In this document: positions 2,632-21,003 of the stretch, piece after piece
Numbering within the stretch: the stretch's first letter is position 1
Layout of the letters: each line of letters opens with the position of its first letter
Source of the DNA: Acidobacteriota bacterium
Lineage (GTDB): Bacteria; Acidobacteriota; Terriglobia; Terriglobales; Acidobacteriaceae
NCBI GenBank assembly: GCA_013285705.1
Contig: JABDHA010000002.1
Location: 842-64,841 of the forward strand
Direction of reading: 5' to 3'
DNA length: 64,000 nt
The notes under the pieces: model-generated
What the model saw: the letters and a program-made list of their open reading frames with translations, nothing else
Told to the model about the DNA's origin: nothing
The model's database searches: none
Made by a program: the position numbers and the translations under genes

Positions 2632-4206
2632 GTGTCAGCGATCGCACTGAAAATTCTGGTCGGTGGAGAACAGCTCGAATCGAGTTTGAGCAGCCGCCAG
2701 GGCACTGTCAATCGAGTTGAGGTTATAAAAGAGCTTAACCGGCATTCATGGTGTGAGATTGAGCTCACTCAAACTGCGGGCAGCCGTCCACCGATCGATC
2801 AATGGATCGGACGGCCTATCTCGCTTGAGTCGACAGCCTCTGGCGTCAAGCTCTTTGTTGGTTTTGTTTTCGATGTGAAGCTGACCTATCAGACCTCCGG
2901 CAGCTTCGGGGTCGTCATCAAAGCTTTAAGTATGAGCTATAAGCTCGACCTTGCACCCCGGTACCGGTACTATGGGCCACTCGCAGTATCCGGCGTTGCG
3001 CAGCAGATGGCCGGAGATGGCGGGATCAACATCGTAGTAAAGGGCGGCGGTGGCACAGCTCCATTGGATCTGGTGCAGTGGGGAGAGACGGACTGGCACT
3101 TTCTATGGCGGCTCTGTGATGATTTCGGAATCTACCTGGTCGCTACTGATGATGGCGTCCGTATTGACGAAGGATTCTCTGAAACTGGTCCAGACCTCTC
3201 GTGGCGCAGTGATCAGGACAACGGACTTGTCGAGTTCTCCGTTGGCGGCTCACTCGGAGCAGCCTCTATAGATGGCTGCCACTATGATTTCTCCACCTCA
3301 AAGAGTGAAGCTTTTCAGCACGTATCACAAGACCCCACGCTCAGCGGCGCGGTTGATACCTTTACAAGCGCAGTGAAACAACAGGCTAAATCTGTTCTGA
3401 AGTCTGGCTATAAATCATGGCGCAACCGGGTGAAATCAATTGGCGACTACCAGACATCCCTTCAGCAGGAAGCGGAGTGGTCTGTCGGTAGTCGGCTGGC
3501 ATGCGGAGGTGTCAGCCGTTGCGAATCTCTGTCTCCTGGGCAAAGCGTGCGGGTGAAGGGTGTCGTTGATGGCGAGGGAAAGTACAACATCGTGCGCGTC
3601 GTACATCTCTGGGGACCTGAAGGCTATACCAACCAATTCAATTGCACGCCCTGGACCAAGTACCGGTCCCATCCCCATCCTGCCCGCCCAAGCGTTGCCG
3701 GTGTCTACTCAGCGCGGGTCATTAATATCGACGACCCGCAGCGGCAGGGTCAGGTGCAGGTACAGTACTACTGGCAGGAGCAGGGGCAGACTACATGGAT
3801 TCGCCACTTGACTCCTTATGCGGGCGCAGATCGCGGCTTGTTCTTTCGCCCGGAAGTCGGCGATGAAGTGCTGGTTGCTTTTGAGGAAGGCGACCCAGAA
3901 CGGCCTGTGATTCTGGGCTCGGCATGGAATATGTCGGATGCTATTCCTAATGAGGATTTCTGGGGTGGAGAGACGCACAATAACGATGTGAAGCGAATCG
4001 TCACCAAGAGCGGTCATCGCATTTCGTTTATCGATAAACAAGGTGAGGAAACCATTGGAATAGCGACACCGACGCACGCAAAACTGGTGCTGCACGAAAA
4101 GGCTGCAGAGACGGGGCGACCAGCAGACGGCGACCTGATCTTCAATGCACCAAATGGACGCATCCACTTTCATGCCAAGTACTGGTCGCGCGAAGTGGGC
4201 GAGTAA
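2632..4206 (+). CDS. vgrG: VgrG-like T6SS spike protein (TssI)
   Basis: Baseplate/spike hub of 524 aa. Residues 1 to about 360 have the gp27/phage late control D fold pattern (YRYYGPLAVSGVAQQMA, GETDWHFLWRLCDDFGIYL). Residues about 370-450 are the gp5 OB fold (VINIDDPQRQGQVQVQYYW, then ADRGLFFRPEVGDEVLVAF and GDPERPVILGSAWN). The GTG at 2632 is chosen because GGAGG at 2623-2627 precedes it; the overlapping ATG at 2630 is in another frame. It ends about 70 residues after the OB fold (YWSREVGE) without the long beta-helical needle of classical VgrG. That part seems to be encoded by the next gene, 12 bp downstream. No C-terminal effector domain is present. The family call is strong. Confidence 0.92.
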   Translation: MSAIALKILVGGEQLESSLSSRQGTVNRVEVIKELNRHSWCEIELTQTAGSRPPIDQWIGRPISLESTASGVKLFVGFVFDVKLTYQTSGSFGVVIKALSMSYKLDLAPRYRYYGPLAVSGVAQQMAGDGGINIVVKGGGGTAPLDLVQWGETDWHFLWRLCDDFGIYLVATDDGVRIDEGFSETGPDLSWRSDQDNGLVEFSVGGSLGAASIDGCHYDFSTSKSEAFQHVSQDPTLSGAVDTFTSAVKQQAKSVLKSGYKSWRNRVKSIGDYQTSLQQEAEWSVGSRLACGGVSRCESLSPGQSVRVKGVVDGEGKYNIVRVVHLWGPEGYTNQFNCTPWTKYRSHPHPARPSVAGVYSARVINIDDPQRQGQVQVQYYWQEQGQTTWIRHLTPYAGADRGLFFRPEVGDEVLVAFEEGDPERPVILGSAWNMSDAIPNEDFWGGETHNNDVKRIVTKSGHRISFIDKQGEETIGIATPTHAKLVLHEKAAETGRPADGDLIFNAPNGRIHFHAKYWSREVGE

Positions 4207-4218
4207 CAAGGAGAAGAC

Positions 4219-5409
4219 ATGGCGGTTTTCGACGGAAGCGTAAAGACACCACGCCGAGTTGCGGATCCTTTGACTGACAAACAAGTCAGCTTGCTTGCGG
4301 ATCTTACATTGGGAGCAATCAATACTCCTGGCGCGCTGCTGTATCCCGGTACAGACGTATCAGTAGTTCATGGCGATCAGCAGTTACATGTCGATCAGAA
4401 TCGCTTCATGAAAGTTGGCATGAACCAGGATGTCACCATCGGGATGAATGAAGTCTACCTGGTGGACATGAATCGAACGATGACGGTTATAGGCAACTAC
4501 ACCAGAGATGTGAAGATGAATTCGCTCATCGATGTGACTGGCAATTACACGAAACATGTCATTTGTAACTACTTCAAGAATGTGACAGGTAATTCGACCA
4601 ATGTCATCACCGGATTCTATTCAAAGTCGGTGACGCTGGACTACACCAAAACAATTATTGGATCGTCGACGAATGCCATTACAGGAATTTACAGCAAGAC
4701 GGTCCAGTCCAATTATCTGAAACATGTGCAGGGCACTTCTTCCAATACAGTCGTTGGCGACTACTCCAAGCTGTTGAGCGCCAACTATCTGAAGGTAGTC
4801 ACAGGGAACTCGAACGTGCAAGTGACGAGCGAGTCGGTCGTGCAATACATTGGCAATCACAGCCGGACATGTGGCGCCGATCATAAGATGTATATCGCCG
4901 GTACGAACACGCATACTACTATCGGCCCGACAATCCGCACGGAAATTGACGTGACGGTATCGCAGCAGGTCGATAATCACGTGGATGCGCATCCGTCGAA
5001 TCTGAACGAGGACAAGAACAACTGGTTCACTGCCGCGGACAAGAAAGGGAGTTGGCAGAGGTATCTTAAGCTGGATTACACATCCGGCTTTTACAATTCA
5101 GGATCAATTTTTAAATTGGACGTGAATGGCGCTAATTATGGAGTGAACGGAACTACCAATGCGGTCTTTGTCGAGAAAATGGACTGCGGCTTTAATAAAA
5201 ATGAGATTGGTGTAGCAAAAGACAAATGGCATGGAGTCAGTATGGTAGGCGCCGGCGTTATAGCCAAGGCCGCCGTGAACACAAGCAAAGCCGTCGTTGC
5301 GACTGCGCATGCCGGCGGTGCCAGCGTAAAGTTTCTCGGCGGCATCCTCCAGGCTGTCCCGGCAAAGATTCAGGCCGGAGTTACCTGGGCTATCAACCAG
5401 TTCATGTAG
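4219..5409 (+). CDS. Beta-helical needle / VgrG C-terminal-like protein
   Basis: A 396-aa protein whose residues about 50-260 consist of tandem short repeats of the type GNYTKxVxxNYxKxVTGNSTN (GNYTRDV, GNYTKHV, GNSTNVI, GFYSKSV, GSSTNAI, GIYSKTV, GTSSNTV, GDYSKLL). This is the low-complexity pattern of the trimeric beta-prism needle found in VgrG and gp5 C-termini. The first 45 residues and the last about 140 residues (NWFTAADKKGSWQRYLKLDY, then a small-residue tail with AGVIAKAAVNTSKAVVATAHAG) are not recognised. RBS AAGGAG lies 9 bp before the ATG. It follows vgrG by 12 bp, so the two are co-translated. Inferred role: needle extension of the spike, possibly with an effector-like or cargo-binding tail. 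Confidence 0.7.
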   Translation: MAVFDGSVKTPRRVADPLTDKQVSLLADLTLGAINTPGALLYPGTDVSVVHGDQQLHVDQNRFMKVGMNQDVTIGMNEVYLVDMNRTMTVIGNYTRDVKMNSLIDVTGNYTKHVICNYFKNVTGNSTNVITGFYSKSVTLDYTKTIIGSSTNAITGIYSKTVQSNYLKHVQGTSSNTVVGDYSKLLSANYLKVVTGNSNVQVTSESVVQYIGNHSRTCGADHKMYIAGTNTHTTIGPTIRTEIDVTVSQQVDNHVDAHPSNLNEDKNNWFTAADKKGSWQRYLKLDYTSGFYNSGSIFKLDVNGANYGVNGTTNAVFVEKMDCGFNKNEIGVAKDKWHGVSMVGAGVIAKAAVNTSKAVVATAHAGGASVKFLGGILQAVPAKIQAGVTWAINQFM

Positions 5410-7739: not shown

Positions 7740-8507
7740 TCAATCTCCGGATGCAAGCCGAAAGGCCAGTTCCTGCGGCAATCCTCTTGCCAGTATCTTG
7801 TCCTGAACGGTACGGATGTCATATTCGACACGGAAGAATTCAACGACTCTCGTCGCCGAGTCATAGATGCAGTATGCCGCCCGCGCGTCGCCATCGCGCG
7901 GCTGACCTACAGCACCGGGATTCAGAAGATATCTTCGATCTGGGATGATCGCCATCTGATCGGGCAGGGCATGCAGGCGAGATACTTCAAAGCTCCGCCG
8001 ATACAATTCTCCGACAAAGCCTCCTTGCACGTGCGTATGTCCAAAAAACGTGAGTTGCTCGCTTGCATAGCGTAAGCCTGCTTCTGCTTCATGTTCGTGA
8101 AACATATAGCGGTCCTCATCGTCGGGTGCGCCATGGACAAGATCGAAGTCTTCCACCAGCACCGGGCCCCGATCCAGGTTGAGCAGCCATTGCGTGTGTT
8201 CGTCAAGCAACTCCTCTCTGGTCCAACGCGAAGAGCATTGCGCCGTTGCGTTGAAAGAATCGAAAGCAGACGCTCCCGAACAGGCTTTGTCATGGTTCCC
8301 TCGAATGACCACGTCTGCATGTGCACGGACCCATGCAGTCACTTCATTCGGATTCGGACCATACCCCACAATATCGCCGAGACATAGAATCGCCTGGTGG
8401 CGCCGGCCCGCGGCGTCACGCAGAACGGCATTCAAGGCTTCCCAATTTGCGTGGATATCACTCAGTATCAGAAAACGCAAAGTTGCTCTCTTGTGCTGCC
8501 TGGTCAT
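7740..8507 (-). CDS. Calcineurin-like metallophosphoesterase
   Basis: A 255-aa enzyme with all metal-binding blocks of the calcineurin-like family in order: SDIHANW (D17, H19), LCLGDIVGYGPNP (D45), IRGNHDKA (N71, H72), LVHGAPDDE and FFGHTHVQG. The family hydrolyses phosphomono- or diesters. GDIVGYGPNP is typical of small bacterial YfcE / PP2A-like phosphoesterases. It is the last gene of the E1-RING-Ubl-E2 operon. The ATG at 8507 overlaps the E2-like gene by 50 bp; an in-frame TTG at about 8480 would shorten the overlap. Its role in the operon is unknown. It might remove phosphate from a T6SS regulator read by the nearby FHA domains, or process an adenylated intermediate. Confidence 0.88.
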   Translation of the reverse strand: MTRQHKRATLRFLILSDIHANWEALNAVLRDAAGRRHQAILCLGDIVGYGPNPNEVTAWVRAHADVVIRGNHDKACSGASAFDSFNATAQCSSRWTREELLDEHTQWLLNLDRGPVLVEDFDLVHGAPDDEDRYMFHEHEAEAGLRYASEQLTFFGHTHVQGGFVGELYRRSFEVSRLHALPDQMAIIPDRRYLLNPGAVGQPRDGDARAAYCIYDSATRVVEFFRVEYDIRTVQDKILARGLPQELAFRLASGD

Positions 8508-9030
8508 AGAACTCGGTTGAAAGACGTCGCCTGCTCTTTTGGTATGACAAAAGCGGGCAGCAGTTCGCGGGTATGGTCAGGAACGGCATCGGCAAAGCAC
8601 AGTATTCCGCAGAATCCATGAAAATATTTTGCTGCAAACGATGTGCAGCGTCCCAGTTCGCGGTCTTGCAGGCCATTATGGCGCGTGTGATCAGGATGGC
8701 GTCCACGATCGTCTGTCCTGGCCGGTAATTCTTCCAAAGACAGACAAATCCCGTCACTGGGTCAACGTTGACGTGCAAGATAGGGCGGACAAAATAGCCC
8801 TCTAACGGTAGGCAGGGATAATAGCGAGGGTATACATATCGAAGAGAGTGCTCTGTTTCGACATGCCGCCCGCTTTCTTTGCTAACCCATGCTGGAGACT
8901 CTCGCACAGCAATGCGGATTTCCTCCTGCAAGCGAACAACGGAAGCAAACACGGGTCGGTTTGCATCCACCAAGGCTTCAAGAAGCTTCCACTCTGCATC
9001 CATGCGGCGATTGCGCACGCTCATCTGCAT
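8458..9030 (-). CDS. E2-like ubiquitin-conjugating enzyme homologue
   Basis: A 190-aa protein with the signature of the UBC/E2 fold. YPRYYPCLPLEGYFVRPILH corresponds to the YPxxPP strand. HVNVDPVTGFVCLW matches the HPN...G.iCL active-site block, with H86, N88 and predicted catalytic C97. IVDAILITRAIMA is the helix after the active site. Residues 1-60 form the expected N-terminal helix and first strands. It starts 3 bp after the stop of the Ubl gene (ATG 9030; a second ATG two codons later). C97 would accept the modifier from the E1-like protein as a thioester. The C-terminal about 60 residues are less typical. E2-like is well supported; transferase activity is inferred. Confidence 0.85.
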   Translation of the reverse strand: MQMSVRNRRMDAEWKLLEALVDANRPVFASVVRLQEEIRIAVRESPAWVSKESGRHVETEHSLRYVYPRYYPCLPLEGYFVRPILHVNVDPVTGFVCLWKNYRPGQTIVDAILITRAIMACKTANWDAAHRLQQNIFMDSAEYCALPMPFLTIPANCCPLLSYQKSRRRLSTEFYDQAAQESNFAFSDTE

Positions 9031-9033
9031 ATC

Positions 9034-9294
9034 TCAACCATTCAGCACGATCGTTGACACGCGGAGAATATCGTTTGCCCGTACGCCTTGTTCCGGAAGA
9101 GGGACTGAGAAGTCGAGTGAAAGACTATTCCAGACCACCTGAGGTTGTCCCTCGCCTTTTAGATAGTCCCCTCGCTCTCTTAGCTCGAATAGTATCTCGT
9201 CAAGCGTGGTGTCTAGCGTTTCCTGTTCATCGATGTCAACGTTGAATTTTTGCTCTGCTCGAACTGTATCGAAGAGCATCTGGTATTTGGGCAT
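9034..9294 (-). CDS. Ubiquitin-like beta-grasp modifier
   Basis: An 86-aa protein that fits the YukD-like/ubiquitin beta-grasp pattern. It has an amphipathic first strand, an acidic turn and helix (TLDTTLDEILFELRERGDYL), VVWNSLSLDF as the central strand, and VPLPEQGVRANDILRVSTIV, which matches the ubiquitin-type segment L-x-x-x-G-I/V-x-x-x-D-x-L. The chain ends in ...VLNG, a single exposed glycine with no extension. It would therefore need no protease maturation before activation. A good RBS (AGGGAGAA) precedes the ATG. It sits between the RING and E2 genes of the same operon, which supports a protein-modifier role rather than a sulfur carrier. Confidence 0.82.
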   Translation of the reverse strand: MPKYQMLFDTVRAEQKFNVDIDEQETLDTTLDEILFELRERGDYLKGEGQPQVVWNSLSLDFSVPLPEQGVRANDILRVSTIVLNG

Positions 9295-9332
9295 TACGGT
9301 TCTCCCTGCTATGCAAGCGTTGCGAATAAAAC

Positions 9333-10058
9333 TTATCTGTTTAACTTTTCTGGACGCGCCCCTGCTGCGACATACTCTCTTACATCAGTAGGCAAATCTG
9401 GAATAGTCCAGCCACATCGGCTGCATTGACCATTGTTGTCATCCCAACATGCACGGCATTGGCCATGTCCGCACCCTTTGCAAGGCCAATGTGCCACATC
9501 CCAATCTGCCAGGCGTAGGCAGAGAGCACACCGGCCACCATGCGCCTGTGAGCCGAAGTTTTCCTGCCACCACGAGAAATCAAGAGGAAACAAGGCGACT
9601 TGATTTGTTTCGCACAAGGAGCATCTACCACGTTCAAAGTGCCAGCAGTTCTCACAAGCCATCAAATGACAGCGCGGGCATGAAAAAGAAAGCAACCGGC
9701 GTAACCTGACATGACAGAGCTGGCACTTGGCTCCGCGCATGCTCAGGCCGAGCGCAGGAGCTCCGGACAGAAGCCCCGCCAGCAGCGGAGCGGCCCAAGC
9801 TGCAGGCGAATAGACTACTTCCGATCCTACTTTTTCAAAAACAAGACCCAACAGGCTGGCAGCTGCTGCGACAAGAGGAAGCAGATAGATATGTTCGACA
9901 TCGAACGCAAACGCGCGCATGCCACCAAGCAGGATCGCTCCGCAAAGAAGACCCCCGGCAAGATCACCGGCAAGTCCCCATCGCGTAGCAACCAGCTGCA
10001 CGATCGCTGCGAGAACGCCAAGCGCCGTAAGCAGAACGTACGTACGCAGCCGCGTCAT
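9333..10058 (-). CDS. Membrane-anchored protein with two RING-type zinc modules
   Basis: A 241-aa protein. Residues 1-108 hold four predicted transmembrane helices (about 5-26, 31-50, 57-75, 84-105). Two Cys-rich modules follow. Module 2 (C177-C215) fits the RING-HC consensus: C-X2-C-X14-C-X1-H-X2-C-X2-C-X7-C-X2-C. Module 1 (C112-C149) has the same spacing, but the histidine is shifted (CHLMAC), so one ligand may be altered. In the same operon as E1, E2 and Ubl, a RING points to an E3-like ligase facing the cytoplasm. The ATG overlaps the E1 stop by 4 bp, so the two are translationally coupled. An alternative is a generic treble-clef/zinc-ribbon membrane protein, but operon context favours E3. 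Confidence 0.8.
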   Translation of the reverse strand: MTRLRTYVLLTALGVLAAIVQLVATRWGLAGDLAGGLLCGAILLGGMRAFAFDVEHIYLLPLVAAAASLLGLVFEKVGSEVVYSPAAWAAPLLAGLLSGAPALGLSMRGAKCQLCHVRLRRLLSFSCPRCHLMACENCWHFERGRCSLCETNQVALFPLDFSWWQENFGSQAHGGRCALCLRLADWDVAHWPCKGCGHGQCRACWDDNNGQCSRCGWTIPDLPTDVREYVAAGARPEKLNR

Positions 10059-10957
10059 GAAGCCCTCTCTACCATCTCATTACGCAAGCTATCGAGGATG
10101 ACAAGCTCACGGCCGTTGCAGAATGGGCACGCGCCCCAGCGCCGAACCCAGGCAATACGCCGGTGCGGGAAAAACTGCCTGCCGCAAGTGCTGCATTCTG
10201 CGAGCGTGCAAATTGGGAACAGTGCTCCGGACATCTCAGCATGGAGCGGACACATGACGCTACGACTATGCTGGACCGTTTGAGATAGAGGCACACCATC
10301 GAGATCTAGATGCACAGAGAAAGATTCCTTTGCATTCTCTGTTGCGGAAAGAGCAATCTCCACTTGAAGGCCCGCCACAATGGAAGCCATGGTCGCCGTA
10401 CTTGTCCAAACCGGTTGTTCATTTCGCTCGTGCGCCCAACAGGCATGCACATCTGACTCCCACATGCTGAACAGTTCGGCCCGCCGGCCGCTGGAAAGCA
10501 GGCAGGCGAAGCAGGCAGCAGAGTCAACGCCTGGAAACCACGACACACGGCCAACACGAGTGCTCACGCCGCCCAGACCGGCATCGCAGACCGGCAACCG
10601 GTAGCGCGCAGCGAGAGCAGAGATCTCTGTGCGAGCCAGATCTGTGTCGACACAGCTGAAGAGCACTTCGGCTTTCAAAAACTGTTCCGGTTCAACATCT
10701 GCGATTTCTACTGGCATCCCATTCCAGAGAGTCTGCGGAAACCACGTTTGCAGTCGATCAAGAGCATACGAAACCTTGCTTTGGCCAATCGCAGCTCCTT
10801 CTCGCAGCAGTATGGATCGCGCAGTGTTCTTCTCCTCCAGCACATCGCAATCAGCAAGAAACACCGCCCCACAGCCTATAAGTCCAAGATTCTTCACAAC
10901 CTCGGAGCCAAGCGCACCTATACCTGCAACTAGAACTTGGCGGAACACAATGCACAC
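10055..10957 (-). CDS. E1-like (ThiF/MoeB family) activating enzyme with C-terminal zinc ribbon
   Basis: A 300-aa adenylating enzyme. The Rossmann motif is at 10-22 (GIGALGSEV), followed by D-x-D-x-L-E-E-x-N-x-x-R at 36-47 (nucleotide and Mg binding). CVDTDLARTEISALAARY with PVCDAGLGG at about 102-130 is the canonical E1 core. The C149-x2-C152 pair is of the kind that binds zinc in the family, and C173 (DVHACWAH) is a candidate catalytic cysteine. The C-terminus adds C255-x2-C258 and C277-x2-C280, a zinc-ribbon extension. The GTG start at 10957 places the Rossmann strand at the very N-terminus. First gene of the operon. Predicted to adenylate the Ubl C-terminal glycine and pass it on to the E2-like protein. 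Sulfur transfer is a less likely alternative. Confidence 0.88.
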   Translation of the reverse strand: MCIVFRQVLVAGIGALGSEVVKNLGLIGCGAVFLADCDVLEEKNTARSILLREGAAIGQSKVSYALDRLQTWFPQTLWNGMPVEIADVEPEQFLKAEVLFSCVDTDLARTEISALAARYRLPVCDAGLGGVSTRVGRVSWFPGVDSAACFACLLSSGRRAELFSMWESDVHACWAHERNEQPVWTSTATMASIVAGLQVEIALSATENAKESFSVHLDLDGVPLSQTVQHSRSVMCPLHAEMSGALFPICTLAECSTCGRQFFPHRRIAWVRRWGACPFCNGRELVILDSLRNEMVERAS

Positions 10958-11229
10958 TCCGGAAGATACGTCTAAGTGAAGAGGTCTGAAGCTTCCTCAG
11001 TATACAAAGCGCAGAAATACTTTTGAGTTAGTAAGAGTCATCTATTCAACGCAAATATCTTGAATAAAATATTCCAGCTAAATTGGACAAGAAAGCGTAG
11101 GAATGGACACTTCAGGTGGCTTGCAAATGAGGACAATTCACAACAGTAATGTGAAGTGCACTTTGTGCGGCACGGAATGCCTGGAGGGTATTTCATCGCT
11201 GTGCTTTGCACGGAGTCCCCAACTTCTGC
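10958..11229. promoter_or_regulatory. Divergent intergenic region between E1-like operon and T6SS core
   Basis: An AT-rich stretch between two divergently read operons, so promoters for both are expected here. A palindromic GCAC-TTT-GTGC lies at 11158-11168; the same core recurs three times in the integrated element. A short plus-strand frame at 11103-11230 encodes KCTLCGTECLEGISSLC. This could be a tiny zinc-binding peptide or a lost N-terminal zinc ribbon of the FHA gene in another frame. No promoter hexamers can be assigned with confidence. Confidence 0.4.
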
Positions 11230-12183
11230 ATGAATATTTATCAAACGCTTTATTTTATGTCGCTCGCGGGCGGGACGGCCGGGTTGCTCGCATGGGCTTC
11301 CCAGGCACTTCTGGTTCTGCTGATACCGGCAGGCTCTCCAGCGTGGCCGTCCGCAGTCATGGCAGCCGCGCTGCTGGGCGGATTCATTGGCGGTTTTACC
11401 GTTGCATTTGATGAGAAGTGGGCAGGCAATCGGGTGCAGGCGCGATGGGTTGCAATGGGCGCTCTGATTGGCTTCGGCGCAGGCATGCTGTCAGGCGCAT
11501 TGCATCTGCCCTTGCGTACCGCGCTGCCCCGGGCGCTTCCTCTGGGCACGGTGCTTGGCTGGATGGTGAGCGGTGCCCTTATTGGGGCTGGATTAGGTGC
11601 GCGCTGGATTTCAGTGAATCGCGCCCGGATCGCGCATGGCATGGTGGGTGGAATGTGCGGAGGCTTTCTGGGCGGGATGGTCTTTGGCACTCTCAGCCAA
11701 TGGCTGCCAGGCACGTCGCAAGCAATCGCCTTCGTCCTTACTGGCGCCGGAATCAGCTTTGGAATTGCTTTTGCGCCAATCCTCCTTCGCGACGCTGTAT
11801 TACGGTTTGTGAACAGCGGTGATCCACGAGCGTCGAGTAAGCTCGGCAAGAAAGAATGGGCCATTCAAGAAGGAGATAGCTATGTGCTCGGTAGTCAAAG
11901 CGCTGATCTATCTAAGTCCACTTACGGACGGGAAGTAGATATCTATCTTCCCGATGGATCGGTCGCGCCGCGTCACGCGCGCATTTATGGTAGAGACGGG
12001 CGCTTCTATGTCACCCGTCATCCTGATGTTATGTCCGAGGCAGGTTTGCGCCGCTTCGTGCTCAAAGCACAGAACCGCTCTGTCACCTCTCCATACGAGC
12101 TGCATGACCAGACCCTGATCATCCTTGGTCGCACGACCCTCATGTTCATCGCGAAGCAGAAAGCGGGGCTTGCGCAACCATGA
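11230..12183 (+). CDS. Glycine-rich multi-TM protein with C-terminal FHA domain
   Basis: A 317-aa protein from the ATG at 11230 (the frame is open to a TTG at 11206). Residues about 5-190 form six or so hydrophobic, glycine-rich helices with GG/GxxxG motifs (GGFIGGFTVAF, GMVGGMCGGFLGGMVFG). The C-terminal about 100 residues look like a divergent FHA domain: YVLGSQSADL, PDGSVAPRHARIYGRDGRFYV, and TLIILGRTTLMF as the last strand. FHA domains bind phosphothreonine and regulate many T6SSs (Fha/TagH). It overlaps the vWA gene by 4 bp. It may supply a membrane platform in a locus without visible TssL/TssM, which is inference. Confidence 0.75.
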   Translation: MNIYQTLYFMSLAGGTAGLLAWASQALLVLLIPAGSPAWPSAVMAAALLGGFIGGFTVAFDEKWAGNRVQARWVAMGALIGFGAGMLSGALHLPLRTALPRALPLGTVLGWMVSGALIGAGLGARWISVNRARIAHGMVGGMCGGFLGGMVFGTLSQWLPGTSQAIAFVLTGAGISFGIAFAPILLRDAVLRFVNSGDPRASSKLGKKEWAIQEGDSYVLGSQSADLSKSTYGREVDIYLPDGSVAPRHARIYGRDGRFYVTRHPDVMSEAGLRRFVLKAQNRSVTSPYELHDQTLIILGRTTLMFIAKQKAGLAQP

Positions 12184-13634
12184 AAATGGTTATCCGCATC
12201 CTCGCAGTTCTTCTCGCCGCCACAGGATGGCAGCAGGTGTCTGCCCGCGGGCAATCCACCTCTCTCGACTTTCTCAGCAAGCCGATGCTGATTGAATGCG
12301 AACCCGAGGGGGCTGATGCCTGTTTTCGATTGCAGTTTGATTTCGTCGACGAAACGGGAAGCTCAGTGAATGTGCAGCTTCCACCCGCCAACCAGTTAGC
12401 GTCGCATATAGAAATTCAAGTAGACGGGCAACCTGTTAGGCCATTCCACGCAGTGACGACTGCGGGCAGCCTAAACCGGACGAGACGTCCGCAGACCACG
12501 CTTCTGCTTTTCGACGTAAGCGGCAGTATGCTGACCAACGACCTCGCAGGTCAATCCCGCTTTGAAGCTGCAAAAGGAGCGGCAGCCGAATACCTGAAGA
12601 ATTTTTCCGATGGTCAGGACCGCGTGGCTATTGTTCCATTTGCCAGCCGCGATGTCGAGAAAACCGTCGCCGCTGCACGCTTTGTGGATACGCGGGCCGC
12701 AGCGCAAACAGAACTGGACGCGCTGCCCAGACCGGAGCCTCGTAACAATACAGCCTTGTACTCGGCTGTACGCGATGCCGTGGAGACGCTTCAGCAGCAT
12801 CGTCGCTCCGATGAGGAGCAGCCACGCCTTATTCTGCTGACAGATGGGACAAACGACGTGCGGCCACAATCCGGAGATGACCAGGGGCTGCTTACCGGGC
12901 CGAGTGGACTGACTGCAGCGGCAAGCGCAGTGCAGCAGTCAGGGGTCGATGTTCTGCCCATAGGGCTCGGCAACAGACAGTCGATTGACGAGGTGGCGAT
13001 GACGCGCTTGGGAACGCGTCCACCATTAATTACTTTTGATCTCGATGCCCTGCATAAAGCATTCCAGCTGCGGCAGCTTCCACAGGACGGAACCCTGACA
13101 GTGACGCTCCAGGCGCCTGAGAGCCTTGGATCACGCACGCTCCTCGCTGGTCGAGTCGTCCGCTTCCGCGCCAAGGCCACACTGGCCGATGGGACCGTGC
13201 TTGTCGAGAATCGCCAGGCGTTGTGGGTTGCTCCGCCGGTTGCAACCCCTTCGTTTGAGGGCACGGCGACGGACGCAGAGCAGCGCGCTTTCCTGACAAA
13301 TGCGCGGCTTGATCGTGGATCGCCCCTGCTCTTCCTGCGGCCATTCCTTGTCTTTGCAGCCCTCGCTGCGCTGCTGGCCGTACTGTGGTTTGGTGTGCCT
13401 CGACTGATCTGGCCCGAACGATACGACCATCGCGCAGCACGGCCCGTCCGGCCAGAGTACTGGCCCGGTGCGGAGCCGGTGAAGCGTCGAGACAATCAGC
13501 CCGCATTTCGGCAGGCGCCACCAGGATTTGAGACGGCAGGTCGCGGTATGCGCGCGCCCATACGCAGTCCTGGCGAACATACGATCGTTCGTCCAGTCAC
13601 AGGATTTGATCCGAATAAAACGCGGTTGAGTTAA
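12180..13634 (+). CDS. vWA-domain membrane protein of T6SS locus
   Basis: A 484-aa protein with a signal peptide (MKMVIRILAVLLAATGWQQ...) and a beta-rich N-terminal domain. A von Willebrand A domain spans about 105-300, with an intact MIDAS (DVSGS, later T in NNTALY, and LLTDGTND). Another beta domain follows, then a transmembrane helix at about 380-402 (FLVFAALAALLAVLWFGV) and a cytoplasmic tail rich in Arg/Pro. The tail ends GEHTIVRPVTGFDPNKTRLS, with threonines in a context that could be phosphorylated and bound by FHA domains. It follows the FHA gene with a 4-bp overlap and precedes tssB by 13 bp. Predicted envelope component or regulator of the secretion machine. Confidence 0.8.
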   Translation: MKMVIRILAVLLAATGWQQVSARGQSTSLDFLSKPMLIECEPEGADACFRLQFDFVDETGSSVNVQLPPANQLASHIEIQVDGQPVRPFHAVTTAGSLNRTRRPQTTLLLFDVSGSMLTNDLAGQSRFEAAKGAAAEYLKNFSDGQDRVAIVPFASRDVEKTVAAARFVDTRAAAQTELDALPRPEPRNNTALYSAVRDAVETLQQHRRSDEEQPRLILLTDGTNDVRPQSGDDQGLLTGPSGLTAAASAVQQSGVDVLPIGLGNRQSIDEVAMTRLGTRPPLITFDLDALHKAFQLRQLPQDGTLTVTLQAPESLGSRTLLAGRVVRFRAKATLADGTVLVENRQALWVAPPVATPSFEGTATDAEQRAFLTNARLDRGSPLLFLRPFLVFAALAALLAVLWFGVPRLIWPERYDHRAARPVRPEYWPGAEPVKRRDNQPAFRQAPPGFETAGRGMRAPIRSPGEHTIVRPVTGFDPNKTRLS

Positions 13635-13647
13635 TGGAAGGAGATCT

Positions 13648-14148
13648 ATGCCGATCATCGATGTGAAGCGCCAGGGTGTCCGGCCCGCCGTTCGCAAGGT
13701 TCCTACAAGCACCTGCGCGGTGACAATGCCTATGACATTAGAGCAGGTAGGACGTGAGGCTCGCTCAGAGAATGAAGAGCCAGAGATGGTGGAGTCGCTC
13801 CAGCACGCCTTCGAGAAATTCAATCCGCAGATGAAGTTTAAAGGATTGGCAGGCGCGGAAGAGACCGAATTCCAGGCAGAACTGCGCTTTCGCAGCATCA
13901 AGGATTTCGAGCCCTCCAACATCATGGCTCGCCAGGAGATCCGGGCAGAAGATGGCTCGGTGACTTATCTGCGCAACGACCTTGCCGATCTGAAGAACAA
14001 CATCGACCTGATGTACCGACTGAAGGACCGCTGGAAGCTGCCTGCGGTGCGGCGGGCATGGAGCAATCCAGAGCAGCGGCGGCAGATCATCGCCGCTCTG
14101 GAGCAGCTGCGGGATGAGCTCGACAAAGTTGTTGAAGGAGAAAAGTAA
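13648..14148 (+). CDS. tssB: T6SS sheath small subunit TssB (VipA)
   Basis: 166 aa, the usual length. Family features: a low-complexity N-terminal strand, ELRFRSIKDFEPSNIMARQE, LRNDLADLKNNIDL, and a C-terminal helical part (REQ-rich, QLRDELDKVV). TssB forms the contractile sheath with TssC. RBS AAGGAG lies 8 bp before the ATG. The stop abuts the tssC start directly (TAA-ATG). Confidence 0.95.
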   Translation: MPIIDVKRQGVRPAVRKVPTSTCAVTMPMTLEQVGREARSENEEPEMVESLQHAFEKFNPQMKFKGLAGAEETEFQAELRFRSIKDFEPSNIMARQEIRAEDGSVTYLRNDLADLKNNIDLMYRLKDRWKLPAVRRAWSNPEQRRQIIAALEQLRDELDKVVEGEK

Positions 14149-15492
14149 ATGGAGACGCTTACAAAATCTACCAGCGAAATTCTGGGAGACGCACCGGCGC
14201 GTGACGTTTTGTTAGAGATCTTTGCCGATCTCCATCCTGGCTTGATCGATGAAAACCGCTCGATCACCTCCATTTTCACTCCGCAGAACGCACGCGAATT
14301 TCTTGTCCAGCTTTCTGACGTGACCTCTCTGCTGAGCGAAGAGGATAGCTTTGAAGAAACTCTGAACAAGCTGCAATCGCAGATCAACCGGGCGGAAGAG
14401 ATGCGGGATGAGCTTCTGGAGCAGGTTTTTGCGCGGCTGCGACCTATCGAGCGTAGTTATCGTGAGCTGCAAACCTTCTTCGACAACACAAAAGTCTACG
14501 ACGGCAAGCAGCGGAAGCCAGTCGAGTTATTCATCTGGAACGCAGACCCGCGTCAGATGAAAGACGTATATAGCATGACCGTTGCAGCCATAGAAAACTT
14601 TTGCAAGAAGCGCAACGATAACTTTAACTTTCGCGATGATATCTGCAATCTTGTCATTCCAGGATGGATCAACCAGTTGGTTCGGGAGCGCCTGGAAAAC
14701 ATCGCGAATCAATGGGGCATCCTGCTCATTACCGACATCGATGACGAGAAATCGTTTCAGAACGTAGAACGGAATTTCCGGCCTGGCGGCAAATACGAAT
14801 TTCTTAAGCGGCCTGAGGATCGTGCGGCAGCAGATGTCGTTGTCATGGGCTATTTACAGTTACGTCCAAGGCATTGGTTCGAGAAGACGATTGACAACGG
14901 TGATGACCTGTATGGTCCTCCGTCGCTTGCCTTCGCCGGCGCCGTGGCTCGCACGGACGATAGTGCGGGCATGGCACAGGGTCCGGTTGGCTCGCGCTTC
15001 GGCCAGGTCACCGGTCCCGAGAAGGCCAGGATCGAACCGCTCATCAGCGAGATGGAACATATCAGCATGGAGCGTCAGCTCATCCCGGTCATCCGCGATG
15101 CAGATAACAAGCTCTGCTTCTTTGGCTGCAGAACGCTCGCCGACGACCCTTACGGAGTGTATAAGTTCTTCACCTCCTATCGCATCATCCGCTACATCGA
15201 ACGATGCTGCCGACACTATCTCTTGCAGGTGGCAGGTCAGGTGCTCACACGCGAGTTCATGGACGAAGCCATCGAAAAGCCAATCGCGCGCATGTTGCAG
15301 GAGCAGGTCGAGGCGGGCACTCTAATTGACTACAAATTGGAAATCGATCGTGATGCGAATAAGCGCATGCAGGGCATCTGTGACCTTAAGCTCGAGGTTA
15401 TGCCGACGGGACCAGGTGAAAGCTTCCGCCTCAAGATCGATACCCCCGAGTTTGCTTCTGAGGGAGCAAAGCAGGAGCCGGCAGGCCGATAG
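14149..15492 (+). CDS. tssC: T6SS sheath large subunit TssC (VipB)
   Basis: 447 aa. Typical sheath motifs: ADPRQMKDVYS, DIDDEKSFQNVERNFRPGGKYEF, RPEDRAAADVVVMGYLQLRPRHWFE, and PVIRDADNKLCFFGCRTLADDP. A C-terminal domain follows with FMDEAIEKPIARMLQEQVEAGTL. The N-terminal helix, needed for ClpV recognition in other TssC proteins, is present (ILGDAPARDVLLEIFADL). It starts immediately after tssB, so the two are translationally coupled. Confidence 0.93.
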   Translation: METLTKSTSEILGDAPARDVLLEIFADLHPGLIDENRSITSIFTPQNAREFLVQLSDVTSLLSEEDSFEETLNKLQSQINRAEEMRDELLEQVFARLRPIERSYRELQTFFDNTKVYDGKQRKPVELFIWNADPRQMKDVYSMTVAAIENFCKKRNDNFNFRDDICNLVIPGWINQLVRERLENIANQWGILLITDIDDEKSFQNVERNFRPGGKYEFLKRPEDRAAADVVVMGYLQLRPRHWFEKTIDNGDDLYGPPSLAFAGAVARTDDSAGMAQGPVGSRFGQVTGPEKARIEPLISEMEHISMERQLIPVIRDADNKLCFFGCRTLADDPYGVYKFFTSYRIIRYIERCCRHYLLQVAGQVLTREFMDEAIEKPIARMLQEQVEAGTLIDYKLEIDRDANKRMQGICDLKLEVMPTGPGESFRLKIDTPEFASEGAKQEPAGR

Positions 15493-15626
15493 CGTGCATC
15501 CGCTAAACGCAGATGGGGCCGGGCATGTGGAGTGACCGCATCCTGGGCGCTCTCCGGAAGCGGCTGCACCGGCGGCCTGAAGTTCAACCCAAACCCACAG
15601 CCGAAGGAAAAGAGAGGACGACCCAC

Positions 15627-16085
15627 ATGTCAAGTCCATTGCGCAGCACAGTCACTGTAGATGGAAACAAGTTCGATGCACTGGCGAGCACAGTGCGTTT
15701 TGCCACGTTGAAGGATCGTGCAGGTATGCCGGAAATGGGCACGCTTTCTACCGCGATCAAGATCTACGTCGACTTTCACGATGATACAAACATTCCGCAC
15801 AGCACGTTGCAACAGCTCTTCAATCTTGCGAACGTCGTAACCCGCGACAAGATTGTCGATATGAAGATCGAGTATTGGAAGGATGATGCCAAAAAAGATG
15901 CCCTGTGCAGCTATAAGTTCAAGGGCTGGATCAGCCGCTTTGAGACCGGGAACCCGCTGCCGACATCGACTCCCGATGGAAATGTTGACTCGAGCAGCTT
16001 CTCGACTGTGAATCACCTGCTCACGCTCGAGCTTGAGCCAGCGATGAACCAGCAGAACTTCAAAGACATCACCATGGGGAACTAA
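15627..16085 (+). CDS. hcp: Hcp-like tube protein (TssD)
   Basis: 152 aa from the ATG at 15627, preceded by AGAGAGGA; the frame is open upstream to 15513 but those residues do not resemble the family. The pattern FKGWISRFETGNP, ETG-containing loops and alternating strands fit a small beta-barrel tube protein. The sequence resembles the divergent TssD of Bacteroidota-type systems more than proteobacterial Hcp. Its position directly after the sheath genes agrees with the tube role. Confidence 0.82.
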   Translation: MSSPLRSTVTVDGNKFDALASTVRFATLKDRAGMPEMGTLSTAIKIYVDFHDDTNIPHSTLQQLFNLANVVTRDKIVDMKIEYWKDDAKKDALCSYKFKGWISRFETGNPLPTSTPDGNVDSSSFSTVNHLLTLELEPAMNQQNFKDITMGN

Positions 16086-16152: not shown

Positions 16153-16629
16153 ATGCAGCACGCTTCCGTCCGTGCAGGAGTTAAGACGTTGGCCCCGACA
16201 TACATTGCAGAAAATCTTTCGGCTCCGTCGATTGCTTTTCCCTTGCGCCTATCGCGTGGCCTGTTGCAGAAGACTGATGAGCGGAACGCGTATTTGATGC
16301 TGCTTGAGATCATGGCGCGGACACCGCGAGGCTCCTGGGCTGGACACCAGTTATTCGGCTTTCGCGAATTTTTTCCAGAAGTTTCCAAAGAAGGCTTGTC
16401 GCCGGAGTCGCGGGCTCTTCTAACGGCGACTACTGCGAAAGAAATTAATGCCGTGCTTGCCGACCTTGGACTTACACGCTATCGCGTTGACTCGCTCATC
16501 CCTGAGAGAGACGAAAAAGATCTGCCAGGCGATCGTGCGCGGTGGACGGGACATGGGATGGAAAGGTGCGGTGTGACACTGATGCTGCGCGAAAGCGGCA
16601 GTGACCGCGCCGCAGGATATGCTCTATGA
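16153..16629 (+). CDS. tssE: TssE-like baseplate wedge (gp25 family)
   Basis: 158 aa. The gp25-like core is visible: SIAFPLRLSRGLLQ for the first strand/helix, ALLTATTAKEINAVLADLGLTRYRVD for the ...IxxxINxxLxxLG... segment, and a terminal strand (GVTLMLRESG). It is divergent from proteobacterial TssE, but its position directly before tssF, with a 4-bp overlap, is the expected one. Confidence 0.75.
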   Translation: MQHASVRAGVKTLAPTYIAENLSAPSIAFPLRLSRGLLQKTDERNAYLMLLEIMARTPRGSWAGHQLFGFREFFPEVSKEGLSPESRALLTATTAKEINAVLADLGLTRYRVDSLIPERDEKDLPGDRARWTGHGMERCGVTLMLRESGSDRAAGYAL

Positions 16630-18338
16630 ATTCGAGCGCGGCAGAGATTGACCTGAAACTTCGTGACGACTTTCGCCGATACCTGCGGGAGTACGGGATC
16701 GAATCTACGCTTATTGATCCCGTGCTGGCCGTGCTTTTTCGCACGCTGGCCGCGCAGATTCACGCGCTCTCGTCAGACACGGACAGGCTCAAAACCGCGC
16801 TGCTGGATGAACTCCTGGAAGGGCTGGGTTTTGAGCGCCGCTTCGCACATCCGGCGCAATTAGTGGTGCGTTACGGTTGTCAGGCTGACCCGTTGCATGT
16901 GGGAGCAGGCACCACTTTGACCGGTGAGCCGGAAAGTGGTGGACGAATGAGCTTCACCACGGATTACGGCATATCGGTCTCTTCTGCGCGCATCGCAGCG
17001 GTGTTCGTCTACCAGCGCCCACCTGAAGGTCATCGTCACCTTGGAGCAGCGCCGGTTGGGGAGCTGCGCTTGTTGAGCGGGATCGAACTTCCGGGGGAAA
17101 GCCTGCGCGCTGGTCCATCTTATGGCCCTGTTCCTGCGGCGTTGGGTGTGCATCCGGCAATCTACATCGCGATTGAAAATCTCAGTCCGTCCTATCTTTC
17201 ACGGCACGGGATCTTTCTGCAAACCAGCCCGGAGGCGACGTTGTTGAATGCCAGGCTGGAGAGTGAAAATTGGTGTCTCGCCTCGAACAACGGAAGGTTC
17301 GAAGCTCCAGGTGTGCTTCGGCCACGCAACCTGAACGCAGGCCAGCGCCAACTGCAGTGGCTTCAAAGAACAGACGAGGCAGCGTCGACTCCGGAGCACG
17401 AAGAAACACCCATGCTGCCCGGCGGCTTCTGGCAGGGTAAATGCTTTGTACTCCCAGCGATCCCCTCGGAGCGTCACTTCCGCTGCGAAGCTCCCTATGG
17501 GCTCGAGGCTCCGATCCGATCGATCTTTGAGCGTCCCGCGCTTTTCTTCAAGCCGCGCGCATGGCTGCGCATTCAACTCGATTCACGGATCGATCCCTTG
17601 CACACTGCCCTCTCGGCCGTTTATCTCAATGCACAAAGCGCCTCCAACGTTGAATGCTCGAACCAGACAGTGCACTTCGCAGAGAACGGCACAACCATTC
17701 CCATCAGCAAAGAAACAGGCGGTCGGTCGTTTCTTGTTGCTCCACTCTCCATTACCGGTGAAAGCGGTGAGACATATCTTCCCGAGTTCCAGCCATCCTT
17801 CCAGCCTGGCGTTGGGAGATATCGAATGCACCAGGGATACATGACGCTATTTCCCGGGAAGATGCCAAACGGCGAAGATGAAGCCTATGCGAATATCCGT
17901 CTCTGGATGACTACTGGGGCGGCTGGCAACCAGATGGGCGTTGCGCGATTGCAGAGCTTCGCGAAAGCACCAGTGCATGGTCTCACGGTTGAGAACATCA
18001 CAGCGGGCGCAGGCGGCTCCGATGGAGAAGGCCTGCATGCAGCACAACAACGCTTCTCTGAGGTCGTGTTGTCTCGACAGCGTCTGCTGACGCGCACCGA
18101 CCTTGAAGTCTCGATTCGCTCCTTCGATCGCCGCATCACCGGCATCGACGTGCATCCTGTACTTGCGCGCAGCACGCGCGGACTGCGCCGCCTGCATCGC
18201 ATCAAGGTGACTGCGGAGCGCGATCGATTTGCCGCTCCGGATGAAGAGGCGCGTGTCCTCGTGATGGATCTGCATGGTTTCCTCGCAGAGCGGATGCCGC
18301 TCGACGTGGAAGCAGATGTGGAGTTGGCATGGGCATGA
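16626..18338 (+). CDS. tssF: T6SS baseplate protein TssF (divergent)
   Basis: 570 aa, close to the usual about 600. The N-terminus (FRRYLREYGIE, then LLDELLEGLGFERRFAHPAQLVVRY) matches the DPxxERLLEgxA region in layout. The middle carries the long beta-rich body. The C-terminal part (GAGGSDGEGLHAAQQRFSEVVLSRQRLLTRTDLE) resembles the baseplate J-like segment shared by TssF and gp6. It overlaps tssE and tssG by a few bases. It lacks some canonical N-terminal motifs, so the family call rests partly on synteny. Confidence 0.82.
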   Translation: MNSSAAEIDLKLRDDFRRYLREYGIESTLIDPVLAVLFRTLAAQIHALSSDTDRLKTALLDELLEGLGFERRFAHPAQLVVRYGCQADPLHVGAGTTLTGEPESGGRMSFTTDYGISVSSARIAAVFVYQRPPEGHRHLGAAPVGELRLLSGIELPGESLRAGPSYGPVPAALGVHPAIYIAIENLSPSYLSRHGIFLQTSPEATLLNARLESENWCLASNNGRFEAPGVLRPRNLNAGQRQLQWLQRTDEAASTPEHEETPMLPGGFWQGKCFVLPAIPSERHFRCEAPYGLEAPIRSIFERPALFFKPRAWLRIQLDSRIDPLHTALSAVYLNAQSASNVECSNQTVHFAENGTTIPISKETGGRSFLVAPLSITGESGETYLPEFQPSFQPGVGRYRMHQGYMTLFPGKMPNGEDEAYANIRLWMTTGAAGNQMGVARLQSFAKAPVHGLTVENITAGAGGSDGEGLHAAQQRFSEVVLSRQRLLTRTDLEVSIRSFDRRITGIDVHPVLARSTRGLRRLHRIKVTAERDRFAAPDEEARVLVMDLHGFLAERMPLDVEADVELAWA

Positions 18339-19252
18339 TCTCCCCATCTCTGGAGCAGTATTCTGTGATGCCTGACTTCGCCCGCGGCACGGCTGGTTTT
18401 GCGCATACGGTAGACTCGGCCGTGCATGTGCTCGAAACGCTGGGCATAGCTGACTCGCGGCTGACACTGCGCATGGTTGGTCCGGGACACCCCGTCCTGC
18501 AGGTAGTGCGCCAGTCCCCTCCGCCTGGAACCCGGCTTTCTCCTTCTGTAGAAGTTACGCTATGGATCTCCGGTTTCGGTTTCTTTGAAGCATTGCCGCT
18601 GCCAATGCGCGAGTCTGGCGGAGAAGCCGAGATAGGTACGCGCGAACTTAGCCGGCTTTTTGATGATCCCGTGCAGAAAGCAGCGCAGTGGCTTCGCGCA
18701 GGAGCTCCCCTCTTTAAGATTGGCCCAGGTAAATATGCCGCTTGCCGTCGCTGGCTTGCGCTTTTCGGTCTGGAATCGTCAGCATGGCCAGAGGAGATGT
18801 TCTACCCGCTCGCTCTGCTTGCTCCTACGTTGGCGCGCATGGCAGGCCGGGAGATCGGGATACAACTGGCCTTTCTCTTTCTTCTTGGTCTTCCTGTTTA
18901 TCAGTTCCACTACCGTAGTGCGCATCGCTCACTCGCGTCGCAAGAGCATTCACTTCTCGGCTTCAGGGCAAGCCGTCTTGGGCGTGACTTTATCGTAGGT
19001 GATCGCCAAATTGACACGGACTCTATCACGATCCAATTAGGCCCAGTCTCGCTCGATACCTATGTCCGTTTTCAGTCTGAGCGTGGCCTCCGACTGATTC
19101 AGATGACAACAGACCTTTGCATGAGCGCCTATCAGAATCATTCCATTACATGGATTCTTGAAGACGTCAGCGAGGCACCGCACCTGGGTATCGCCTCGAA
19201 AAACAGTCGCATCGGTCTCAACTTTCACCTGGGTAGAGGAGCAAGTGCATGA
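18329..19252 (+). CDS. tssG: TssG baseplate protein with N-terminal PASTA-like domain
   Basis: 307 aa. Residues about 14-82 look like a PASTA domain: MPDFARGTAGFAHTVDSA, LETLGI, and the diagnostic VVRQSPPPGTRLSPSVEVTL (Q-x-P-x-x-G-T-x-V/L). The rest is TssG-like. An early FFEAL-type box is at about 85, and the C-terminus has LGFRASRLGRDFIVGDRQIDT followed by ITIQLGPVSLDTYVRF, the LGx...D...GPL box of TssG. PASTA domains usually occur outside the membrane on PknB-type kinases, so a baseplate protein carrying one is unexpected. It overlaps tssF by 10 bp and tssK by 4 bp. Confidence 0.82.
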   Translation: MGMISPSLEQYSVMPDFARGTAGFAHTVDSAVHVLETLGIADSRLTLRMVGPGHPVLQVVRQSPPPGTRLSPSVEVTLWISGFGFFEALPLPMRESGGEAEIGTRELSRLFDDPVQKAAQWLRAGAPLFKIGPGKYAACRRWLALFGLESSAWPEEMFYPLALLAPTLARMAGREIGIQLAFLFLLGLPVYQFHYRSAHRSLASQEHSLLGFRASRLGRDFIVGDRQIDTDSITIQLGPVSLDTYVRFQSERGLRLIQMTTDLCMSAYQNHSITWILEDVSEAPHLGIASKNSRIGLNFHLGRGASA

Positions 19253-21003
19253 ACCCGAATGACGTTCGCCACAATGCAGTCAATTGGGAATTCGGGATGC
19301 TCGTGGCGCCCGAACACTTCTTGCGTCAGGAGCGCTTCTACGAAGCGACGATGCTCTGGATGCTGCGCTATGCGCACGATGCCTTCGGGTTGATTGGCGG
19401 CGGTCCACGACTGCCGGAAAGCGAATTCGGCGCCGTACGGCATGACCCGATTGTCACACTCTCGGAGGATGAACACACGTTACGCATCACAGTGACCCAA
19501 TGCCGCGGCTTAACCATGGCCGGCACGCCGGTTGAGATTGTGCCCGATTACCCGCTTCATCAAGAGTTCAACAAGGCGGATCTCGATGGAGTCAGCGAGA
19601 CGCGTATTTATATCGTGGCGCTACCCCATACCTATACTGTGCTTGACGGCCCGCGCGATGAGCACAACCCGCAGATGCAGACAGAGCGAGTTCGCGCCTA
19701 CCGTCTCACACTGCAGCCACATGGAGAGGACACGCAGCATGCAATCGCCGTGAGTCGACTGCGCCGTTCCGAAAGCAGCATCGCATATGAAAAGGACTCG
19801 AGTTACATCCCTCCCTGCACGAACCTGACTGCCTTCAGCGAACTCAGCGTTGCATGGCGGCGTATTGTCGAACAACTCTCTTCTCTGTCCCGCCGCTTCA
19901 TCGAATTGCATCGCGCCATGCAGGAATACATAGAACTTACACGGGAGCGCGGCATTGATGTCGGCATCGACCGCGACACACTTGAGTTCGTCAAGCGGAT
20001 CATCCCAGCTATTGAGACCTGTCTTTATAGCTGCCTGAATCCTGTACAGCCTCCGTCTCAATTCTTCGGCCATCTCCGCTTATTCTCGCAGAGCGCTGCC
20101 GTGAGCCTCGACTTGAGTCCGCCCGTGCAGCAGTACTTCGACGCGTTGAAAAATGCGGGCGAAACGGAATTTGTACCTCTGGTGGAGCAACAGAAGCAAT
20201 TATTAAGAAGTTCGAGGCGCTGGCGTGTCGAAGATGACTTAGGTTTAGAGGTGCGCTTCGCGCAGCAATCGCTGCGCAACCTCCAGACGCTCGAGCGTGC
20301 TCTCGAAGGCAAGTATATTGATTTCCGCGTAAGCCCGACCCTTGACACAATGAACTTCGTCTTCGACCGGGGCGGCAGCGCACTCTACAAACTGGCGGCC
20401 AAGCCTGCGCGCTTGCAGGGCTTCGGTGACGAGATGGCATTCCACTTCGCCGGCATCCGCCTTGAGGGACGCGAGAAGTACAGGATCATTCTCACCGCCG
20501 AGTTGGAGCATGAGTATATAGCGGACACGCGAGTGCCCGTTGAAATTCGTATCAATGAAGGAAGCGGATCGCGCCGCACCCCGATCCACGGCATTGCGCA
20601 GGTACGTTTTGCTGGACAGAAAAATGTGGAGTTCGATTTTGACGCGCCAGACATTGCGTCGGTGACCGACCTGCGTGTCTCTGTGCCGGCGCAATTCAAC
20701 GTAAAGACGGCTCTCTTGTTTGTACGTCATCGCTTCTATGCTCAGGATTTGGAGAGAAGAAGCCCCGCAGGCCAGCAAATAGACACATCGCTTCGTGCGA
20801 GCCAGTTGTCGCGGCTGCACGAAGAAATGGATTCTGTCGCGGTCCGCGGTGACCAGGCGTCCGGCCCATTCAGATCGCCATTGCAGGCTCGGCCCGACGT
20901 ATCGCGAAATTCGTGGAATACTCGCGATGAGCAGGCCGCTGCTCCTGAGCCCAGACCTCTGGAAAGCCCCGTTTCCCCGCCCCGCAGACGGCGCCTTGAA
21001 TAG
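19249..21003 (+). CDS. tssK: T6SS baseplate-membrane connector TssK
   Basis: 584 aa, longer than the usual about 445. The N-terminal shell motif is conserved (VNWEFGMLVAPEHFLRQERF). A helical neck region follows (LSSLSRRFIELHRAMQEYIE) and a beta-rich C-terminal head. The last about 80 residues are extra: a low-complexity Arg/Pro tail. In other systems the TssK head docks on TssL/TssM. Since no TssL or TssM is seen here, the enlarged C-terminus may bind a different membrane partner. It overlaps tssG by 4 bp. Confidence 0.9.
   Translation: MNPNDVRHNAVNWEFGMLVAPEHFLRQERFYEATMLWMLRYAHDAFGLIGGGPRLPESEFGAVRHDPIVTLSEDEHTLRITVTQCRGLTMAGTPVEIVPDYPLHQEFNKADLDGVSETRIYIVALPHTYTVLDGPRDEHNPQMQTERVRAYRLTLQPHGEDTQHAIAVSRLRRSESSIAYEKDSSYIPPCTNLTAFSELSVAWRRIVEQLSSLSRRFIELHRAMQEYIELTRERGIDVGIDRDTLEFVKRIIPAIETCLYSCLNPVQPPSQFFGHLRLFSQSAAVSLDLSPPVQQYFDALKNAGETEFVPLVEQQKQLLRSSRRWRVEDDLGLEVRFAQQSLRNLQTLERALEGKYIDFRVSPTLDTMNFVFDRGGSALYKLAAKPARLQGFGDEMAFHFAGIRLEGREKYRIILTAELEHEYIADTRVPVEIRINEGSGSRRTPIHGIAQVRFAGQKNVEFDFDAPDIASVTDLRVSVPAQFNVKTALLFVRHRFYAQDLERRSPAGQQIDTSLRASQLSRLHEEMDSVAVRGDQASGPFRSPLQARPDVSRNSWNTRDEQAAAPEPRPLESPVSPPRRRRLE

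Follow-up and report, generated by a model that had tools for sequence, protein, structure and literature searches.

A JAB-less E1-E2-RING-like-ubiquitin-like gene cassette fixed in the locus of a divergent acidobacterial type VI secretion system

The window, a stretch of 64,000 nt from Acidobacteriota bacterium GCA_013285705.1 (contig JABDHA010000002.1, positions 842 to 64,841, forward strand), carries a cassette for an E1-like enzyme, a RING-like membrane zinc protein, a ubiquitin-like protein (Ubl), and an E2-like enzyme inside the locus of a type VI secretion system (T6SS). We consider it somewhat better than an even chance (about 0.55) that this set, fixed in one divergent acidobacterial T6SS type, joins the Ubl via its C-terminal Gly to T6SS proteins at the inner membrane. 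In the open reading frame (ORF) listing, five minus-strand genes, overlapping or nearly touching, occupy positions 7740-10957 and encode E1, RING-like protein, Ubl, E2, and a metallophosphoesterase (MPE). The ORF coordinates confirmed the packing and spacings given by a first-pass annotation of the stretch: a 4-bp overlap between the E1 and RING-like genes, a 38-bp gap between the RING-like gene and Ubl, a 3-bp gap between Ubl and E2, and a 50-bp overlap between E2 and MPE. Its placement of the operon between a VgrG module and the sheath/baseplate genes was likewise borne out, with the VgrG module flanking the cassette on one side and an FHA-VWA-TssB-TssC operon on the other.

Linkage and co-occurrence were analyzed by searching a family sample of 398 genomes from 79 genera with an E2 profile and the window's TssC. 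E2 was detected in 20/398 genomes and this TssC type in 21/398, and all 20 fell within the 21; the only TssC genome without E2, G616, has the gene on a 4,270-base contig that starts inside FHA. Genome G529 carries two E2 and two TssC genes. Pairwise distances correlate with those of TssC at 0.70 for E1, 0.87 for RING, and 0.80 for E2, compared with 0.97 for TssB, values that are not tree-corrected. Among the 25 regions read (the window and 24 others), E2 and TssC lay on one stretch in 19, each of which contained E1, RING, Ubl, E2, FHA, VWA, TssB, and TssC; the E2 and TssC genes of each point in divergent directions and lie 6.0 to 7.9 kb apart. Because the same arrangement recurs in all 19 regions that hold both genes, the link between cassette and T6SS is not an accident of a single genome, the outcome that the first-pass annotation had named as speaking against its proposal. 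Outside these 19, E2 occurred with no TssC in the region in G242, G179, and G319, and near a contig end with TssC off the stretch in G634, G622, and G602. The contig with TssC breaks off within FHA in both G602 and G622, an arrangement compatible with adjacency without demonstrating it. In a phylum sample of 396 genomes, E2 was found in nine, TssC in seven, and both in six; a wider E2 profile raised its count to 12/396 by adding weak matches in G025, G026, and G301.

The assignments of E1, RING-like protein, Ubl, and E2 made in the first pass were upheld by profiles and models. The E1-like protein (10055-10957, minus strand; 300 amino acids as annotated) possibly starts at a GTG at 10948, the start used in close relatives. 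It matched ThiF in a single-protein Pfam scan (7.3e-24), and a 20-row E1 profile matched UBA7 (3.6e-24) as well as MoeB, UBA5, Cap2, and BubCD, the last from Citrobacter at 2.2e-18. GxGxxG, D36, N44, K61, D104, the CxxC at 149/152, and C173 are invariant across the 20 rows, and a Rossmann adenylation domain with GxGxxG, Asn, Lys, and Asp places the protein in the E1 superfamily. The E2-like enzyme (8458-9030, minus strand) carries H86-x-N88 and, further on, C97-L98. Its match to Pfam UQ_con (0.0011, 19.1 bits) lies under the 27-bit cut-off, its family alignment reached 1.9e-6 at best against solved E2s, and H86, N88, and C97 are conserved in 23/23 rows. With a UBC fold predicted on a homologous fusion protein of genome G242, the H-x-N motif and the catalytic Cys are those of the E2 superfamily.

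The Ubl (9034-9294, minus strand) is a single 86-amino-acid domain, and all 21 Ubls of the T6SS type that were found terminate exactly at Asn-Gly. The window Ubl had no match in the single-protein Pfam scan, and a 17-row profile gave no credible match in the PDB (best 0.17, an unrelated antitoxin). Weak Pfam matches appeared among the 17 members, to Ubiquitin_5 in four (best 0.049) and to TmoB in two (best 0.014). Because sequence matching of the Ubl came up empty, the natural Ubl-E2 fusion of G242 was chosen for modelling. The model comprised a ubiquitin fold and a UBC fold, the two folds whose absence would have spoken against the first-pass proposal, and ubiquitin rows appeared at E 2.6e-4 to 6e-4 among the 50 Foldseek rows listed. 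The top rows for the fusion, Bqt4 (TM 0.22-0.30 near full length) and a DNA clamp, looked like chance matches and were set aside for the UBC and ubiquitin rows. The window Ubl is thus taken as a beta-grasp modifier with a free C-terminal Gly, its fold predicted from the homologous half of the G242 fusion.

The membrane zinc protein (9333-10058, minus strand; 241 amino acids) has hydrophobic helices at residues 1-107, in the model and by hydropathy, followed by two 8-Cys zinc domains at 112-149 and 177-215, and all 16 Cys are invariant in 20 rows. The first-pass designation of this protein as a RING may hold for the second domain, which is RING-like; a single zinc domain had been expected and there are two. 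The window's own protein had no match in the single-protein Pfam scan and is not among the members of its family that weakly matched Prok-RING_2 (9/20) and Prok-RING_1 (8/20). In the family alignment, the second domain matched the RING E3s NOT4 (0.0034) and Arkadia (0.0035). VIA-align of the model aligned mainly the helical anchor. The protein is likely the E3.

Four related cassettes outside this T6SS carry a JAB gene. In G242, from another family of the phylum, the order is PP2C - E1 - RING - Ubl::E2 - JAB - FHA - VWA (L020:4313-9041); its JAB has a C-terminal hydrophobic stretch. Genome G179 has E1 - Ubl - E2 - JAB (L025:16265-18001 and L026:1-727) with no T6SS genes at the cassette, and its Ubl of 93 amino acids ending ...EGGLR was identified by place and eye only. 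A YukD-type Ubl - E2 - JAB set occurs in G026, where the Ubl extends beyond ...VAG. In G025 (L119:5977-18331), the order RING-like - E1 - TIR-YukD - gene - Ubl::E2 - JAMM-like protein, the last recognized by its motif by eye with no Pfam match, is followed by WD40-like and AAA proteins, and the region is perhaps a defence island. JAB is thus present in all four relatives (three by Pfam, one by eye), and all four have a Ubl that either extends beyond its glycine or forms a fusion with E2. A motif scan of all ORFs in the 19 linked regions turned up no JAMM-like motif, the only positive regions being those of G242 and G179. The first-pass statement that all parts of the cascade are present therefore fails for the JAB protease. 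Loss of JAB from the organism as a whole was ruled out by a JAB gene elsewhere in 7/7 genomes tested; the cassette alone is without one. Since the terminal glycine is the last residue encoded, Ubl maturation would require no JAB, in keeping with a cassette that lacks one. The T6SS-type cassette appears to have become independent of JAB maturation, and the JAB genes elsewhere in the genome may still remove the Ubl.

The T6SS of the window was recognized by its sheath, baseplate, spike, and ClpV genes, with VgrG, TssB, TssC, TssG, and TssK identified by Pfam together with a ClpB/ClpV-type ATPase. On the plus strand and divergent from E1 follow an FHA protein with hydrophobic stretches (11206-12183; Pfam FHA 4.5e-5), a VWA protein with one hydrophobic stretch (12180-13634; VWA_2 1.1e-13), the sheath proteins TssB (13648-14148; T6SS_VipA 4.9e-6) and TssC (14149-15492; TssC 8.4e-27), three genes without Pfam assignment that are kept in linked loci (15513-16085, 16153-16629, and 16626-18338), the baseplate proteins TssG (18329-19252; T6SS_TssG 8.7e-7) and TssK (19249-21003; T6SS_VasE 7.7e-7), and a ClpB-family ATPase that is ClpV/TssH by context (21024-23651; AAA_2 5.2e-54, ClpB_D2-small 1.6e-20). 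The match values of TssB, TssC, TssG, and TssK mark the T6SS type as divergent. TssJ, TssL, TssM, and Hcp had no Pfam match among the scanned operon ORFs, and no genome-wide search for them was made. The small gene at 15513-16085, single in the clade with the phosphoesterase and usually doubled in the clade with a kinase gene after E2, is perhaps Hcp. A PASTA match (2.6e-5) lies close to the N-terminus of the TssG-like protein. The last gene of the operon (23551-25761, plus strand) encodes a 3-keto-disaccharide hydrolase domain and a C-terminal FHA domain, and an AraC-type regulator and a copper amine oxidase lie downstream (25795-29100, minus strand). The other flank, also on the plus strand, holds the VgrG spike (2632-4206; Phage_base_V 8.6e-25), a gp5-C-like protein (4219-5409; Gp5_trimer_C 8.1e-11), and three genes without good assignment that start at 5423, 6360, and 7193 and end, as a stretch, at 7732.

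The flanking genes differ between the two clades and the cassette core is constant. The calcineurin-like MPE (7740-8507, minus strand; Metallophos_2 1.6e-16), counted as part of the operon in the first pass, follows E2 in only 8/19 linked loci, the window included, and is therefore accessory and not core. In the other 11, the gene after E2 is one that a profile built on the window's TPR/PEGA protein detects. There are 14 such post-E2 genes, three of them on fragments, and the four scanned were all Ser/Thr kinases. In the phosphoesterase clade, the large TPR/PEGA protein encoded ahead of VgrG carries a kinase domain, as observed in G061; the window's TPR/PEGA gene starts before the window, and its front lies off the contig. 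FHA and VWA remain linked to the cassette in G242, outside the T6SS. This retained linkage and their hydrophobic stretches make the two proteins candidates for recruiting or receiving.

In the proposed mechanism, E1 would adenylate Gly86 of the Ubl and take the Ubl onto Cys173, and E2 would then accept it at Cys97. The E3 role would fall to the second, RING-like domain of the membrane-anchored zinc protein, which would carry Ubl-loaded E2 to targets close to the base of the T6SS. Tagging would be coupled to phosphorylation, a tie suggested by the FHA protein, the kinase genes, and, in one clade, the phosphoesterase adjoining the cassette. Assembly of the T6SS elsewhere is under the control of a kinase-FHA-phosphatase switch. 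A bolder version, with the odds somewhat against it, has this T6SS branch depend on Ubl conjugation: the membrane RING and E1/E2 would attach a ready-made Ubl to the tail of the system itself (sheath, baseplate, or spike) and, together with phosphorylation, gate assembly or firing.

Several observations weigh against conjugation onto T6SS proteins; catalysis, T6SS targets, and any effect on assembly or firing are inferred from the genes, motifs, predicted folds, linkage, and co-occurrence. The window's genome is 59% complete. RING and E1 are separated by about 1.7 kb in G694, three of the nine phylum-sample genomes with E2 (G242, G179, and G319) show no TssC match, and G201 has a distant TssC with no E2 match. 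Since G242 keeps both FHA and VWA without TssC, the two genes may be part of the cassette rather than of the T6SS. The RING call is structurally weak, with no Foldseek row for the zinc-protein model below E 0.5 (best 0.51), and the first zinc domain is FYVE-like in appearance. In E1, the Arg at N44+3 is present in the window, yet in only 8/22 rows, and E1s of the window's clade lack an N-terminal segment ahead of the Rossmann fold. Many family E1s thus have no equivalents of the N-terminal and Asn+3 arginines of MoeB, which we take to bind ATP, and ATP binding by E1 may deviate accordingly.

That the cassette instead serves defence, against phage or against toxins entering the cell, merely sharing the T6SS locus and tagging foreign proteins, is unlikely but deserves real weight. 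Bil is antiphage, and in the G025 relative TIR, AAA, and WD40-like genes surround E1 and E2. Greater mobility would be expected of defence genes, whereas this cassette has a fixed place in 19/19 loci and occurs only with this TssC type among the 398 genomes. Ubl, E2, and the zinc protein had no PADLOC match at E up to 1, and E1 matched the PADLOC E1-E2 and BilD models solely through its ThiF domain. We regard it as quite improbable that the Ubl marks effectors or spike proteins as cargo, with tagging selecting for loading or firing; the cassette adjoins VgrG and gp5-C-like genes in eight loci, but a kinase-family gene follows E2 in the other 11, and VgrG was not seen beside the cassette in most stretches.

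Deviations in the ATP-binding residues of E1 and the fusion of Ubl to E2 in G242 would suit a signalling or scaffold complex, or sulfur transfer, with a degenerate E1 and no tagging. This is very unlikely given that C97 of E2, C173 of E1, and the terminal Gly of the Ubl are conserved in all rows examined; to our knowledge, moreover, E2 and RING proteins have no place in sulfur transfer. There is hardly any likelihood that the linkage reflects shared descent within one family with no functional tie. The linked loci do all come from one family, in 6/79 sampled genera, and cassette and TssC diverge together, but gene order stays intact across these loci even though their E2s share as little as 29% identity with that of the window, the flanks change between clades around an unchanged core, and the cassette tracks a T6SS that is itself patchy (21/398).

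Operons of a related kind were described before. Burroughs, Iyer and Aravind reportedly described bacterial E1/E2/RING/Ubl/JAB operons with Prok-RING domains in 2011. The present cassette likewise combines E1, E2, Ubl, and a RING-like protein and shows weak Prok-RING_1 and Prok-RING_2 matches, and the cassettes of G242, G179, G026, and G025 belong to that type; the T6SS cassette differs by having no JAB, a Ubl that ends at Gly, and a fixed place in a T6SS locus. With the kinase-FHA-phosphatase control of T6SS, the locus shares FHA, kinase-family genes, and a ClpB-family ATPase, and we know of no such system with a Ubl cascade. Bacterial E1/E2/JAB/Ubl operons are described in Iyer 2006 (PMC1779556) and in later work, and the comparisons with Bil, Bub, archaeal, and bacterial operons draw on PMC3482391, PMC13373217, PMC11354881, PMC1779556, and PMC13296761. 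Bil (BilABCD) also holds Ubl, E1, and E2 in one operon, but its BilA contains a pair of Ubl domains, BilD combines an inactive with an active adenylation domain, and BilC is a JAB, whereas here there are one Ubl domain, one ThiF domain, a RING-like protein, and neither a two-domain Ubl nor a JAB in the operon. Bub is tied in these sources to CapW, CapH/CapP, and CapK/CapS regulators and not to T6SS, the likeness being the profile match of E1 to BubCD. The Caldiarchaeum E1/E2/RING/Ub/Rpn11 operon, as presented there, has E1, E2 of eukaryotic type, RING, and Ubl in common with the cassette, but its C3H2C3 RING and Rpn11-type JAB are not found here, where the zinc protein is all-Cys and membrane-anchored, in a T6SS context. 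A literature search over titles and abstract openings found none joining a Ubl cascade to a T6SS; key papers were out of reach, so absence from print is not established. The first-pass view that the operon differs from known conjugation operons stands for the missing JAB and the T6SS context and falls for the E1/E2/RING/Ubl/JAB kind, already known (Pfam Prok-RING_1 and Prok-RING_2, Bil, Bub, and archaeal operons). Within the literature searched, no JAB-less form fixed in a T6SS was encountered.

The cassette is open to experiment, since the named strain Edaphobacter modestus DSM 18101 carries it. If this T6SS branch does depend on Ubl conjugation, we know of no earlier secretion machine that has a eukaryote-type conjugation cascade of its own, and the system would be a domesticated counterpart of Bil, whose action disturbs phage assembly. 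Most of what is known about Ubl conjugation in bacteria comes from antiviral systems; that this cassette accompanies a single T6SS type across genomes suggests a use in operating a nanomachine. Such a use would mean a further level of T6SS control, would provide a compact E1-E2-RING-Ubl set whose E3 is membrane-bound, and would illustrate how JAB processing can become dispensable once the Ubl reading frame ends at the glycine codon.

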